Origin: Sphingopyxis sp. H115
GTDB taxonomy: Bacteria > Pseudomonadota > Alphaproteobacteria > Sphingomonadales > Sphingomonadaceae
Assembly (NCBI RefSeq): GCF_001468465.1
Contig: NZ_LNSA01000002.1
Location: 1 to 64,000, forward strand
DNA: 64,000 nucleotides
Direction of reading: 5' to 3'
In this document: one piece after another, positions 4,046 through 8,779 of the stretch
Numbering within the stretch: the stretch's first letter is position 1
Layout of the letters: each line of letters starts with the position of its first letter
Notes under the pieces: generated by a model
Told to the model about the DNA's origin: nothing
Database searches by the model: none
Seen by the model: the letters and a program-made list of their open reading frames with translations, nothing else
Position numbers and translations under genes: made by a program

Positions 4046-5590
4046 TCACGCGTCGCGCCACCGCGCCGGCAGCGCGATATCGACGATCAGCCCGTCCGGT
4101 TCCCAGCGCCGCTCGATCGTTCCGCCCAGATTGTTCTTCACGCTGCGTTCCATCAGCAGCGTGCCGAAGCTGGTGCGATCGGGCGCGACGATTTCGCGGG
4201 CGCCGCCGCTCTCAGCCCAGGTCAGCCGGAACATACGATCATCGGCGCCTTCGGCGTCCTGCGTCCAGCCGATATCGACGCGCCCGGCTTCGCCTGTCAG
4301 CGCGCCATGCTTGACGGCGTTGGTCGCAAGTTCGTTGAACAGCAGCGCCATTGCGACGAGCGCATTTTCGGGCAGCAACAGGTCGGGGCCCGACCAGCGG
4401 ATCCGCGGGAAGGCCGCCTCGACCTCGCGCATCAGCGCATGCATCGACCCGGTCATGAAATTGGACCCGAGCAGGACATTTTGCGCGCGATTGAGCGCGT
4501 CGAGCCGGCTGCTGATCCGTTCGACATAATCGTCGACGTCCTGCGCGGCGTGGCGGGTCAGCGAGATGATCGCGCTGACCGTCGCGAACAGGTTTCGCAT
4601 CCGGTGGTGCAATTCGCGCATCAACAGATTGGCATTTTCCTGCCGGCTTTTCTGCTCGGTGATGTCGATGCAGATCCCGGTCAGGACGGCATCGTCGGCC
4701 TTGACGTCCCAGTCGCCGCGAATGCCCAGCCAGCGCACGCCGCGTTCGGGATGAACGATCCGATGCTCGACCTTGTACGGCGATCCGTCGGCAACCGATT
4801 CGCGCAGCGCGGCCAGCACCGACTCGCGGTCGTCGGGATGGATGCGGCCGATCGTGTCGTCGCGCGTCGCCAGCGCGGTGCGGTAGTCGGCGCCCCACAG
4901 TTCGGCGACCGCGCCGCGCCAATCGACCCCCTGGGTGCGGGCGTCGTATCGCCACGTCGCGATCCCCGAAAAATCGAGCGCGCGTTCGAGCGTTCGGCGC
5001 GCCTCGTCGCGTTCGGCGCCGAGGCGGCGCAGGTCCGCCTCCGCCATGATGATCCCGGCAAAATCTTCGAGCCGTTCGAGCTCGACATCGGTCAACGCAT
5101 CCCGTTGTTCCCGGTCGATGATACAAAGACTGCCGAGGACCGCACCATTATAAGCGCGCAGCGGCACCCCGGCATAGAAGCGGATATGAAGATCGCCCGT
5201 CACCAGCGGATTGTCATGAAATCGCGGATCGCCGAGCACGTCGGTGACCATCACCGGCCGGTCTTCGGCAATGACATATTGGCAAAAGCTCATCTCGCGC
5301 GGCGTTTCGGGGGTATCGAGGCCGTAGGCCGATTTGAACCACTGGCGACAGTCGTCGACCAAGGAAACAAGGGTGATGGGCACGCCGTAAAGTTCGGAAA
5401 CCATTTTGGTCACCCGATCGAACGCCTGTTCGGGTGGCGTGTCCATGATGCGATATTCACGGAGCGTATCAAGGCGAAGCCGTTCCGCCCGTGCAACCTC
5501 ATCTCCCCCGTCCGCCAAACCCCGTCCCTCGCCATCCTTCGATGCGGCGGGCGCCGCATCGTTCATCTCCCCGCGGCGCTGCTCTGCCAT
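4046..5590 (-). CDS. GAF-PAS sensor histidine kinase of the HWE/HisKA_2 type
   Basis: The 514-residue protein has a GAF domain (about 35-185), a PAS/PAC domain (about 205-315), and a kinase core with ELHHRMRN (phospho-acceptor probably His329) and the N-box FNELATNAVKHGAL (Asn424). The HRxxN dimerisation box is typical of the HWE/HisKA_2 kinases that phosphorylate PhyR in alphaproteobacteria. There is no transmembrane segment, so it should sense a cytoplasmic signal. It is divergent from phyR, 210 bases away, which supports a role in the general stress response. AAGGA precedes the ATG at 5590 by about 9 bases. Confidence 0.88.
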   Translation of the reverse strand: MAEQRRGEMNDAAPAASKDGEGRGLADGGDEVARAERLRLDTLREYRIMDTPPEQAFDRVTKMVSELYGVPITLVSLVDDCRQWFKSAYGLDTPETPREMSFCQYVIAEDRPVMVTDVLGDPRFHDNPLVTGDLHIRFYAGVPLRAYNGAVLGSLCIIDREQRDALTDVELERLEDFAGIIMAEADLRRLGAERDEARRTLERALDFSGIATWRYDARTQGVDWRGAVAELWGADYRTALATRDDTIGRIHPDDRESVLAALRESVADGSPYKVEHRIVHPERGVRWLGIRGDWDVKADDAVLTGICIDITEQKSRQENANLLMRELHHRMRNLFATVSAIISLTRHAAQDVDDYVERISSRLDALNRAQNVLLGSNFMTGSMHALMREVEAAFPRIRWSGPDLLLPENALVAMALLFNELATNAVKHGALTGEAGRVDIGWTQDAEGADDRMFRLTWAESGGAREIVAPDRTSFGTLLMERSVKNNLGGTIERRWEPDGLIVDIALPARWRDA

Positions 5591-5745: not shown

Positions 5746-5771
5746 GGAACCGACCCGCGCGCAGGCGCGTA
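5746..5771 (+). promoter_or_regulatory. Candidate EcfG-type promoter of phyR
   Basis: GGAAC at 5746-5750 is followed by 17 bases and CGTA at 5768-5771. The known EcfG consensus is GGAAC-N16/17-CGTT. A transcript would start near 5778, which excludes the in-frame ATG at 5771 and leaves a short leader before the ATG at 5801. Confidence 0.6.
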
Positions 5772-5800
5772 TGACGACACTTGATGAGGGAGCATTTTCG

Positions 5801-6595
5801 ATGACATTGGGTGAGGAACTTCGCGGCCATCTTCCGTATCTGCGCCGCTATGCGCGCGCCTTGACCGGCAGCCAGCAGCATGGCGACAATTTCGTGCATA
5901 CCACGCTGGAAGTCATCGTCGCCGCGCCCGAAGAGTTCCATAGCGGCGACGGGACCCGCATCGACCTCTACCGCAATTTCCACCGCATCTGGGAAAGCGC
6001 CTATATCGACGAAGGCGAGGACGCCGACGAAGGCGAACATCCGCTGGTCCGCGCGGCGCATCGCCGCCTTGTCCAGATCACGCCGCTTGGCCGGCAGATC
6101 CTGCTGCTCACCGCGCTCGAAGGCTTTTCGGTCGAAGAAGCCGGACTGATCACCGGCACCGACAGCGAAACGGTCGAGACGCTGCTCGCCGATGCCGTCG
6201 GCGAACTCGACCGCGAAACGCGCACGTCGGTGCTGATCATCGAGGATGAGCCGCTGATCGCGATGGAACTCGAACAGATCGTCCGCGACCTCGGCCACCG
6301 CATCGCCGGCATCGCGACGACGCATGACGACGCCGTCGCGGCGTTCGAGGAAACTGACGCCGGGCTCGTCCTTGCCGATATCCAGCTCGCCGACGGGTCC
6401 TCGGGAATCGATGCGGTGCAGGAGATATTGGCGATCGCCCCCGTGCCCGCGATCTTCATCACCGCCTTTCCCGAACGGCTGCTCACCGGCGGGCGGGTCG
6501 AACCGACCTTCCTGATTTCAAAGCCGTTCCGCGAAAACACCGTGCGCGCGGCGATCAGCCAGAGCCTGCTGTTCACCCCGCAGCTCGCGGCCTAA
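5801..6595 (+). CDS. phyR: General stress response regulator PhyR
   Basis: The 264-residue length is normal for PhyR. Residues 1-135 form a sigma-like domain (LPYLRRYARALTGSQQHGD) and residues 143-260 a receiver domain with acidic pocket EDE (148-150), phospho-acceptor Asp193, and Lys241. The sequence FITAFPERLLTG fits the FATGUY receiver subclass. When phosphorylated, PhyR binds the anti-sigma factor NepR and releases EcfG. GAGGGAG precedes the ATG at 5801 by about 8 bases, so this start is preferred to 5771. A GGAAC-type promoter lies just upstream. nepR-ecfG lies 1.3 kb downstream, separated by two inserted minus-strand genes. Confidence 0.95.
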   Translation: MTLGEELRGHLPYLRRYARALTGSQQHGDNFVHTTLEVIVAAPEEFHSGDGTRIDLYRNFHRIWESAYIDEGEDADEGEHPLVRAAHRRLVQITPLGRQILLLTALEGFSVEEAGLITGTDSETVETLLADAVGELDRETRTSVLIIEDEPLIAMELEQIVRDLGHRIAGIATTHDDAVAAFEETDAGLVLADIQLADGSSGIDAVQEILAIAPVPAIFITAFPERLLTGGRVEPTFLISKPFRENTVRAAISQSLLFTPQLAA

Positions 6596-6644
6596 CGTCT
6601 ACAAGGTGGGCGGTACCGGCCCGTCGAAAGCCGGGCAAAGGCCG

Positions 6645-7199
6645 TCAATCCGGCGAAGGCCCGCTGCCCGTCAGCTGGTCGACATTGTCCATGATCGTGC
6701 GGAACGCCTCGCTCGACGGCATTTCGTCGGCGCTGCGCCGCGGCATTTCGCCGCTGTCCAAGATGGCCTGCAGCGCGGCGCGGCCGCGCGACACGCGGCT
6801 TTTCATCGTGCCGACGGCGCAGCCGCAGATCGCCGCACCTTCTTCATAGGATAATTGCCCGGCGCCGATCAGGATGAGCGCCTCGCGCTGGTCGACGGGC
6901 AGCATCAGCAGCGCGCGCTGGACGTCGGCGAGGTGAAGGCTGTCGTCCTGGTCGTCGGGGGCGACAAGCAGCCGTTCGGCCGCCATCTCGTCATATTCGG
7001 CGGTGAATTTCTTGCGCCGCATCTGCGACAGGAAACAGTTGCGCAGTATCACGAAGGCCCAGCTTTTCATGCTGGCGGGCCCCGGCACATATTGCGCGCG
7101 CGCCTTCCACGCCTTCAGCATCGTTTCCTGCACCAGATCGTCCGCCATGTCGGCGTTGCCGGTCAGGCTGCGGCCAAAGGCGCGCAGGTGCGGCAACAT
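6645..7199 (-). CDS. Second EcfG-family sigma factor (5' end probably disrupted)
   Basis: At least 184 residues encode an ECF sigma factor very similar to the EcfG at 8153-8779. Shared segments include LPHLRA-GRSL-GN, FVILRN-FLSQMRR, DQREALIL and GTMKSRVSR. Region 2 and region 4 are both intact. No good ribosome binding site precedes the ATG at 7199, and the same frame continues upstream as coding-like sequence (PQPLDDTSFKRELAA) with no start codon before a stop. A well-placed ATG with GGAG exists at 7291 but in another frame. The gene may therefore be frameshifted, recoded, or start at 7199 with a trimmed end. The BLUF gene lies upstream on the same strand. Confidence 0.85.
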   Translation of the reverse strand: MLPHLRAFGRSLTGNADMADDLVQETMLKAWKARAQYVPGPASMKSWAFVILRNCFLSQMRRKKFTAEYDEMAAERLLVAPDDQDDSLHLADVQRALLMLPVDQREALILIGAGQLSYEEGAAICGCAVGTMKSRVSRGRAALQAILDSGEMPRRSADEMPSSEAFRTIMDNVDQLTGSGPSPD

Positions 7200-7246
7200 C
7201 GCCGCGAGTTCGCGCTTGAAGCTGGTATCGTCGAGCGGTTGAGGCG

Positions 7247-7291
7247 TTACGTCGCTGATAAAATGGCCTTTGTATGGCGATGGGTGGTCAT
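7247..7291 (-). CDS. 14-codon leader ORF before the second sigma factor
   Basis: The ATG at 7291 is preceded by GGAG with 5 bases of spacing and encodes MTTHRHTKAILSAT before a TAA. It lies in a different frame from the sigma gene; a -1 shift anywhere along it would join it to the coding-like frame that runs into the sigma factor. It could be the displaced true start of that gene or a leader peptide. Confidence 0.4.
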   Translation of the reverse strand: MTTHRHTKAILSAT

Positions 7292-7341
7292 CTCAGCTCC
7301 GGCTTAGCGGCTTGGCATGGCATTGCAAGCGCACCCCCGGG

Positions 7342-7746
7342 TCACGCCGGGCGCGGACGGCGGCCGAGCGCGATGAAATTGTAGAAAATCCGTTCATCCT
7401 CGGCATCGATGCGCCCGTTGGCGGCGAGCCGCGCCAGCGCGTCGTCGCGCCATTCGAAGCGCGGATCATAAAGCATCGCCCATTCGGCGAAATCGCGCGT
7501 CTCGACCGGCCGTCGCCGCACCTCGATCATGCCGCTGTGCCGCGGATCGGCGCGGATAACGGCAAGGCAGGCATCGACCCGTTCGGCCGGCCCCTCGAGA
7601 AGTTGCAGGAAATTGCGGCCGTTATAGACGAGCGCGCCGGTCAGTTCGTCGCGGATATTGTTGCGCCGCGCCGAAACGAGGATCGCGGCGATATCCTCTT
7701 CGCGGATCAACGGGTCGGCGACGCTGACATAAGTAACGGAAAGCAA
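7342..7746 (-). CDS. BLUF-domain blue-light sensor protein
   Basis: The 134-residue protein is a single BLUF domain plus a short tail. All the photochemical residues sit at canonical spacing: Tyr6, Asn30, Gln48 (in FLQLLEG), Trp89 and Met91 (in EWAML). These match Tyr8, Asn32, Gln50, Trp91 and Met93 of Slr1694-type BLUF proteins. It should bind FAD and sense blue light in the cytoplasm. The start is a TTG at 7746, preceded by AGGTGG with 4 bases of spacing. It lies upstream of the second sigma gene on the same strand, inside the stress-response locus. No effector domain is present, so it must act through a protein partner. Confidence 0.88.
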   Translation of the reverse strand: MLSVTYVSVADPLIREEDIAAILVSARRNNIRDELTGALVYNGRNFLQLLEGPAERVDACLAVIRADPRHSGMIEVRRRPVETRDFAEWAMLYDPRFEWRDDALARLAANGRIDAEDERIFYNFIALGRRPRPA

Positions 7747-7862
7747 AAGGCCACCTCTCGGATGCCGGCAAAAAGCCCGGCAAAGTGTGACCCCTCACAC
7801 CTCATCGCTTACGGGCCCTGTGCTTTCTTGGCAACGCGTTCGTCGCAAAAAAACGAAGCCGT

Positions 7863-7887
7863 GGAACCAGCGGCGCCTTTCCTCGTT
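7863..7887 (+). promoter_or_regulatory. EcfG-type promoter of nepR-ecfG
   Basis: GGAAC at 7863-7867, 16 bases, then CGTT at 7884-7887 is an exact match to the EcfG promoter consensus. It implies autoregulation of nepR-ecfG. Transcription would begin around 7893-7896, essentially at the nepR ATG. Confidence 0.75.
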
Positions 7888-7895
7888 GCTTCGGC

Positions 7896-8153
7896 ATGGC
7901 TACGCACGGCAACAACAGGACGAACGGCAAGGGAAGCGGCCACCACCCGCTGACCGACGCGCCGAATCGGCCGCAGGGAAGCTTTCCCGGCACCGGCAGC
8001 GACGAGTGGCATCGTACGCTGACCGGCCGGCAGTCGCCCGAGCCCGTGAGCGCGAAGCTGCGCATGATTTACGGCAATATCGTTTCCGAACAATTGCCCG
8101 ACCATATGCTCGACCTTCTCTCCCAGCTCGACCAGAAAAGCCCGAAACAATAA
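7896..8153 (+). CDS. nepR: Anti-sigma factor NepR
   Basis: The 85-residue protein has an unstructured N-terminal half and the NepR helix motif near the C terminus (KLRMIYGNIVSEQLPDHMLD, residues 54-73). NepR binds EcfG and keeps it inactive until phosphorylated PhyR displaces it. Its stop overlaps the ecfG start as TAATG, the normal coupled arrangement. The ATG at 7896 lies only 9 bases after the promoter -10 element, so the mRNA may be leaderless; no Shine-Dalgarno sequence is seen. No alternative downstream start would keep the whole protein. Confidence 0.9.
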   Translation: MATHGNNRTNGKGSGHHPLTDAPNRPQGSFPGTGSDEWHRTLTGRQSPEPVSAKLRMIYGNIVSEQLPDHMLDLLSQLDQKSPKQ

Positions 8154-8779
8154 TGACCGAAGCCACCGCCGCGTCGCAGGCCGGCGCCCTGTCGGACAGC
8201 GAATTCAAGGCGTTGCTGGCAGGCGTCATCCCCCACCTGCGCGCTTACGGGCGCAGCCTTTCGGGAAATCCCGACCTGGCCGACGATCTGACGCAGGACA
8301 CGATGGTCAAGGCGTGGGCGTCGCGCGAGCGGTTCGAACGCGGCACGTCGATCAAGGCGTGGACCTTCGTCATCCTGCGCAACACCTTCCTGTCGCAGAT
8401 GCGCCGCAACAAATTCGTCGGCGAATATGACGAGACCGCGGTCGAACGCACCATGTCCACCCCGGCAAGCCAGGAAGACAGCGGCGAAATGGCCGATTTG
8501 CAACGCGGCCTGATGGAATTGCCGCAGGACCAGCGCGAGGCGCTGATCCTCGTCGGCGCCGGCGGGCTATCCTATGAAGAGGCGGCGAGCATCTGCGACT
8601 GCGCGCTCGGCACGATGAAAAGCCGCGTGTCGCGCGCCCGCGCGGCGCTCGAGGAAATCATGAACCGCGGCCAATTTTCGCAAAAACGCGCCGACGCCCC
8701 GCCGTCGAGCGAGGCGGTCGATGCGATCATGGACAGCGTCGAGACGATCACCGCGCGGCGCGAGGCGGCAAACCGCTAA
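8153..8779 (+). CDS. ecfG: General stress response sigma factor EcfG
   Basis: The 208-residue ECF sigma factor has region 2 (DLADDLTQDTMVKAW; FVILRNTFLSQMRR) and region 4 (LPQDQREALILVGAGGLSYE; GTMKSRVSRARAAL). It directs RNA polymerase to GGAAC-N16/17-CGTT promoters and is held by NepR under unstressed conditions. The ATG is coupled to the nepR stop. The TTG/GTG-initiated longer frame upstream overlaps nepR entirely and was rejected. A close paralogue lies at 6645-7199. Confidence 0.95.
   Translation: MTEATAASQAGALSDSEFKALLAGVIPHLRAYGRSLSGNPDLADDLTQDTMVKAWASRERFERGTSIKAWTFVILRNTFLSQMRRNKFVGEYDETAVERTMSTPASQEDSGEMADLQRGLMELPQDQREALILVGAGGLSYEEAASICDCALGTMKSRVSRARAALEEIMNRGQFSQKRADAPPSSEAVDAIMDSVETITARREAANR

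Follow-up and report, generated by a model that had tools for sequence, protein, structure and literature searches.

Why should a blue-light sensor gene and a second sigma factor gene stand inside the switch that controls the general stress response (GSR) of an alphaproteobacterium? The question arises from a 64,000-nucleotide stretch of the Sphingopyxis sp. H115 genome (contig NZ_LNSA01000002.1, positions 1 to 64,000; hereafter, the window). An initial annotation of this DNA described two minus-strand genes, for a BLUF protein and an EcfG paralogue, inserted between phyR and nepR-ecfG, and proposed that they wire light input and an alternative sigma output into the stress switch. Family searches recovered all of the named genes (PhyR, the minus-strand EcfG-type sigma factor, BLUF, NepR and EcfG), with the two minus-strand genes between phyR and nepR-ecfG as described, and we regard the gene identities as practically certain. 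Judged by its gene content, this is the core GSR locus of Sphingopyxis, of the PhyR-NepR-EcfG type. The explanation that we favor as a whole, with a probability of about 0.6, is that of a GSR locus whose minus-strand sigma factor gene, ecfG2, starts at AUC and whose BLUF protein supplies a light input.

The roles of the two sigma factors can be read from the position of their genes. In the accessible part of a study of Sphingopyxis granuli TFA (PMC7083833), the GSR locus contains nepR2-ecfG1 preceded by GGAAC-N16-CGTT, a divergent ecfG2 without an EcfG promoter, and a phyR2 gene convergent with ecfG2. The same source describes ecfG2 as constitutive, as the global switch of the response and as the main contributor to stress resistance, with ecfG1 depending on ecfG2. 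The corresponding genes of the window are phyR (5801..6595, plus strand; NF006623, 348 bits; PhyR_sigma2, PhyR_sigma-like and Response_reg), whose product carries the sigma-like and receiver domains in family searches; nepR (7896..8153, plus strand; PF18557, 34.3 bits against a cut-off of 25.7), the counterpart of nepR2; and an EcfG-type sigma factor gene identified by family match (8153..8779, plus strand), whose ATG at 8153 is overlapped by the nepR stop codon (8151-8153). The minus-strand sigma factor gene (6645..7259; Sigma70_r2 and r4_2) is divergent from this pair, convergent with phyR and devoid of an EcfG promoter, as is ecfG2 of S. granuli. Because the positions are those of the S. 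granuli TFA locus, we designated the minus-strand gene ecfG2 and the nepR-linked gene ecfG1. The promoter pattern, with a strict motif at nepR and none facing ecfG2, is consistent with this assignment. By analogy, EcfG2 is likely the master stress sigma factor and EcfG1 an auxiliary one. The synteny does not support the alternative output proposed for the minus-strand sigma factor, and we rejected it, as this gene matches by position the master sigma factor of S. granuli TFA.

How common the arrangement is was examined in 80 Sphingopyxis genomes, 77 of which had a NepR match and 49 a BLUF match. The survey yielded 76 nepR loci (75 fetched plus the window); NepR was not matched in three of the four remaining genomes, and the only match in the fourth (G262) resembles the second NepR. 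The minus-strand sigma factor gene was present in 74 of the 76 loci (73 of the 75 fetched, plus the window), and the two loci without it (L120 and L127) were dropped. In locus L177 (genome G122), ecfG2 appears frameshifted and was recovered as two tblastn pieces; this locus was left out of the start codon counts and of the locus tree (n=73). In 46 of the 74 loci, the interval between ecfG2 and nepR contains BLUF; one of these, L185, has a fragment of the gene and was excluded from the BLUF tree and the residue counts (n=45). The comparison of gene order suggested by the initial annotation thus found BLUF and this sigma factor gene together repeatedly, with BLUF physically tied to the stress locus. 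The arrangement is not a product of chance, because BLUF occupies the same place in these 46 of the 74 loci. Only one of the two genes fits the description of an insert: BLUF is optional, but ecfG2 belongs to the genus-wide locus.

Where does ecfG2 begin? The open reading frame first reported (6645-7199) is present, but the gene appears to extend to 7259 and to start at ATC, which gives a protein of 204 amino acids. The ATC codon (7257..7259, minus strand; context TATCA) stands 20 codons ahead of the first ATG (7199) and is the sole start-like codon between that ATG and the upstream in-frame TGA. A Shine-Dalgarno-like AAAGG, recognized by sequence match, lies 7 nt before it (7267..7271, minus strand). 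A start at ATG 7199 would cut into the conserved N-terminus. A stretch resembling ISDVTPQPLDDTSFKRELAA of the window is conserved upstream of the ATG in relatives; at the corresponding position or close to it, some species carry ATG or GTG. Furthermore, the alignment with the solved sigma factor 5uxx begins at residue 13 of the ATC-start protein, 8 residues before ATG 7199 (E 1.5e-40).

The same signals recur across the genus. In a start zone from codon -26 to -15, ATC (43 loci) or ATT (one locus) was the only start-like codon in 44 of the 73 loci, and ATG or GTG was present in 29. A Shine-Dalgarno match of at least 4 nt (AAAGG or AAGG; AAAG in three) accompanied the near-cognate codon in 43 of the 44 loci, compared with 1075 of 8800 random windows. 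The lone miss (L167) is a locus in which the script scored a second ATT; AAAGG precedes the first. All 44 near-cognate codons have T before and A after them (TATCA or TATTA); in the other loci, T precedes an in-frame ATG of the zone in 1 of 15 cases and a GTG in 11 of 17. In one model of initiation, the bases flanking the start codon pair with the loop of the initiator tRNA. Among the 35 loci with ATC at codon -20, the entropy of the ATC is 0, compared with an average of about 1.4 bits per site in the 12 codons upstream; the three codon positions of the 19 downstream codons have 0.40, 0.35 and 0.83 bits, respectively, the pattern of coding DNA. The drop in entropy to a codon pattern from the ATC onward indicates that coding constraint begins there.

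Neighboring genes served as controls. Their starts are canonical for phyR (ATG in 62/62) and BLUF (44/44; TTG in 40, GTG in two and ATG in two), and nepR has ATG in 71 of 72 loci. A narrow zone of codons -6 to +5 held no canonical start in 43 of 72 ecfG2 genes versus 5 of 72 ecfG1 genes. When the zone was widened to codons -40 to +12, every ecfG1 gene had a canonical start (72/72) and 28 of the 73 ecfG2 genes had none. We rejected ecfG1 as a second near-cognate gene on these grounds, as the five genes lacking a start in the narrow zone have one in the wider zone. We also discarded an upstream frame-shifted ATG for ecfG2, since the short overlapping ATG frame in the window is by eye not conserved, and infC of the window's genome as another near-cognate gene, where in-frame ATGs stand by eye at the likely start.

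Some observations speak against an AUC start. ATG or GTG occurs at or near the place of the ATC in 25 of the 73 loci, and in four more (L152, L157, L158 and L160) the ATC is followed within a few codons by ATG or GTG; these four were scored among the 29 loci with ATG or GTG, but as ATC type on the tree. Some in-frame canonical codon is found between codons -40 and +12 in 45 of the 73 loci. All loci are related by descent, so none of the counts given here and below are of independent events; start type needs 10 changes on the tree of 73 loci. The competing explanation has ecfG2 translated from ATG 7199 into a protein of 184 amino acids, with the conserved upstream stretch serving as leader only. 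No canonical start precedes this codon in the frame, and ATG occupies its position in 72 of the 73 loci. Yet codon-type constraint continues upstream of it, the match to 5uxx includes residues that precede it, the Shine-Dalgarno sequence and the TATCA context are located at the ATC, and S. granuli NBRC 100800 (L186/L237) has CTG at this position and an ATG upstream instead. Translation from ATG 7199 is, in our judgment, highly improbable. The sequence evidence strongly suggests that ecfG2 of the window begins at AUC, a very rare start codon.

The second gene between phyR and nepR is that of the BLUF blue-light sensor (7342..7746, minus strand; PF04940, 93.9 bits), a short protein of 134 amino acids read from a TTG start. 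PF04940 was the only domain found, with no kinase or effector domain, and the predicted model (pLDDT 85.6, pTM 0.80) has a BLUF fold followed by two C-terminal helices (residues 101-110 and 115-129). The photochemical residues listed in the initial annotation (Tyr6, Asn30, Gln48, Trp89 and Met91) are as claimed; Y6, N30, Q48 and M91 are found in all 45 complete locus BLUFs, with W (36) or F (nine) at position 89. In BLUF photoreceptors, the residues that matter are the flavin-site Tyr, Asn, Gln and Met. The best structure matches by E-value were PixD proteins, with BlrB just behind and with a higher TM-score, and the closest by sequence was 2byc (BlrB). As modeled, the protein is a short stand-alone BLUF of the PixD/BlrB type. 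Proteins of this type act by light-dependent binding.

What is such a protein doing at this locus? The 45 complete locus BLUFs form one clade (support 100/100) when set beside 40 further BLUFs from the genus and family, and the distances among them correlate with those among the sigma factor genes (Mantel r 0.673; none of 2000 permutations reached this value; n=44). The median dN/dS was 0.122 in 12 chosen close pairs, and the locus copy is the only BLUF found in the window's genome. By these comparisons, the gene is largely vertically inherited and selected, dispensable and repeatedly lost. That it can be dispensed with follows from its absence from 28 of the 74 loci with ecfG2, the 12 changes that its presence needs on the tree of 73 loci, and a clear 82-nt relic in L152 (78% identity, E 8e-15). 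Weaker BLUF nucleotide matches in L124, L159, L174 and L182 (E 2e-4 to 2e-3) could have arisen by chance.

Absences, losses and relic also weigh against a role of BLUF in the stress switch, and further observations point the same way. BLUF is less constrained than its neighbors (dN/dS of 0.047 for ecfG2, 0.035 for ecfG1, 0.050 for nepR and, in nine pairs, 0.034 for phyR). Downstream of BLUF, ecfG2 has a promoter-like element of its own, TTGCA...CGCTAAGC, defined by conserved columns (7302..7328, minus strand). In the window, 42 nt separate its end from the ATC; 60 of 73 loci, some with BLUF and some without, show the pattern. Because ecfG2 keeps this element, co-transcription with BLUF is not required, and an obligatory BLUF-ecfG2 operon is not supported. 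Outside the genus, BLUF lies within 1 kb of nepR, by eye and among the matches listed, in a single genome (G089) of a family sample of 199 genomes, 105 with BLUF and 177 with NepR, and we rejected a frequent pairing of BLUF with the GSR across the family. All of this agrees with BLUF as a passenger that landed once between ecfG2 and nepR and has its partners elsewhere, its position reflecting inheritance of the intergenic site. The retention of BLUF at the same spot in so many loci and its four invariant photochemical residues speak against a passenger, as does the location of six further BLUF copies inspected in the genus (L299-L304), none of which is at the GSR locus. We rate this explanation as possible, somewhat short of an even chance, and an action of BLUF on the PhyR-NepR-EcfG switch as about an even bet, the effect of light being inferred from position only.

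The G089 genome, from a different genus of this family, carries a distant BLUF gene upstream of nepR-ecfG and in the same direction, and phyR is convergent (L278, 5194-7721). The case proves little because about 0.1 such neighbors are expected by chance (a hand estimate from about 150 listed BLUFs, 2 kb and 3.2 Mb).

BLUF could also be an output of the response, a stress-made member of the EcfG regulon with a role in, for example, photoprotection. It stands back to back with nepR-ecfG1, whose EcfG-type promoter (GGAAC-N16-CGTT; 7863..7887, plus strand) ends 8 nt before the nepR ATG. A strict GGAAC-N16/17-CGTT promoter precedes nepR in all 74 loci, and the spacing between its -10 box and the ATG (7888-7895 in the window) is 8 nt in 66 of 72 loci, 9 nt in five and 51 nt in one. 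The short spacing suggests a leaderless nepR-ecfG1 mRNA or one with a very short leader. A relaxed reverse EcfG motif overlaps the nepR promoter in 41 of the 46 BLUF loci, as expected if BLUF were driven by EcfG, but the same motif is found in 25 of the 28 loci without BLUF, S. granuli (L186) included. No strict EcfG promoter faces BLUF in the 46 BLUF loci, or BLUF or ecfG2 in any of the 74, and we rejected an EcfG-type promoter in this direction, the relaxed motif being the nepR promoter read backwards. Furthermore, ecfG2 expression in S. granuli TFA is constitutive and practically unchanged in an ecfG double mutant, according to the accessible part of the study (PMC7083833). An output role is improbable, and BLUF is likelier an input because no strict EcfG promoter faces it. 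The EcfG-type motif of phyR (GGAAC-N17-CGTA; 5746..5771, plus strand), whose first base is the position at which the initial annotation began the locus, is also conserved, with GGAAC-N15..18-CGT in all 63 loci that have phyR and enough upstream DNA (-10 box CGTA in 62 and CGTT in one).

Other intergenic elements are less readily assigned. A promoter-like TTGCCA-N17-TAAGC that is not of EcfG type faces BLUF (7807..7834, minus strand); this is a weak assignment, as the pattern is present in 17 of 45 BLUF loci and also in 6 of 28 BLUF-less loci. A block conserved in loci with and without BLUF, GCAACGCGTTCGTCGCAAAA (7831..7850, no strand assigned), lies about 32 nt ahead of the nepR -35 box and has one exact match in the window and none in 100 shuffles. 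It could be a binding site for a regulator or belong to a promoter that faces BLUF. The CGCTAAGC element is missing from L183, L184 and L190 and from all ten loci that combine a GTG start of ecfG2 with absence of BLUF (L122, L146, L149-L151, L153, L155, L156, L173 and L188). These ten look like one haplotype spread by recombination, with L146, L173 and L188 elsewhere in the locus tree.

How might the parts work together? EcfG2 would be made constitutively as the master sigma factor, to judge from the synteny with S. granuli, and would be held by NepR until stress-activated PhyR frees it in a phosphorylation-dependent partner switch like that of S. granuli and the family. The freed EcfG2 would then turn on nepR-ecfG1. 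The AUC start may keep the synthesis of EcfG2 low, below that of the anti-sigma factor, and BLUF may feed blue light into the switch, tuning it by binding to a GSR protein, for which EcfG2, NepR and PhyR are the likeliest candidates. In its most specific form, the proposal would have AUC within UAUCA throttle EcfG2 and make its supply dependent on IF3 and the state of the ribosome, as a checkpoint besides PhyR-NepR, with BLUF as a blue-light input that acts by binding and is distinct from LOV kinases. We offer this full version tentatively and consider it rather unlikely to hold in every part.

Use of the AUC start would mean that, across a large part of a genus, a rare start codon limits a master regulator of stress, and would provide a natural system for how bacteria exploit start-codon proofreading. 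Software that trusts ATG, GTG and TTG would then also make EcfG2 20 residues too short. Should BLUF act on the switch, the GSR would receive blue light through a stand-alone protein that works by binding, and not through a LOV kinase. Sphingopyxis is a genus with working genetics, as described in the accessible part of PMC11165598.

Further features complete the picture. The core locus also includes a gene for an HWE-family histidine kinase with GAF and PAS domains (4046..5590, minus strand; Pfam GAF, PAS_3 and HWE_HK), which is divergent from phyR, and a relative was found in 63 of the 74 fetched nepR loci, some of which end at a contig edge. Elsewhere in the same genome set, a second NepR match and a second, divergent homolog of phyR (53% identical) are separated by about 300 bp (L195, 4920-6070; G000:C2, around 108.8 kb), and the available text on S. 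granuli likewise describes a nepR1-phyR1 pair that resembles this arrangement. Rfam and tRNA scans of the window gave no match. The closest named locus is that of Sphingopyxis sp. JAI128, with a sigma factor 98% identical.

Among the papers listed in a literature search that covered few subscription journals, we found no report linking BLUF to the PhyR-NepR-EcfG response and none of an ecfG2 gene with an AUC start; the sources seen mention BLUF and general stress response together only regarding sigma B of Listeria and Bacillus. Among known systems, the GSR locus of S. granuli TFA is like that of the window in its genes, in their relative orientations and in having GGAAC-N16-CGTT at nepR2-ecfG1 and none at ecfG2. 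It differs in that the tags SGRAN_1161-1164 are consecutive and no BLUF is named in the accessible text (PMC7083833). S. granuli NBRC 100800 also departs from the window, with no BLUF at the locus and an upstream ATG for ecfG2. The LOV histidine kinases that feed PhyR (Rubellimicrobium RT-HK and Erythrobacter) are a known light route into the GSR and, like the arrangement proposed here, tie a blue-light flavin receptor to PhyR-NepR-EcfG, as described in the accessible part of PMC12148442. There the LOV domain is fused to an HWE/HisKA2 kinase and acts through it, whereas the BLUF protein of the window, stand-alone and with no kinase domain found, would have to act by binding. It matches BlrB (2byc) and PixD (1x0p and 2hfn) over nearly the whole length, C-terminal part included (2byc_B, TM-score 0.79/0.80, 34% identity), and we found no literature joining these short BLUFs with the PhyR-NepR-EcfG switch. 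The start codon has parallels of its own: infC and other genes with non-AUG starts have a near-cognate AUY start with a Shine-Dalgarno sequence. Unlike infC, ecfG2 is a sigma factor gene, and it carries AUC in more than half of the loci of its genus, within a fixed UAUCA context.

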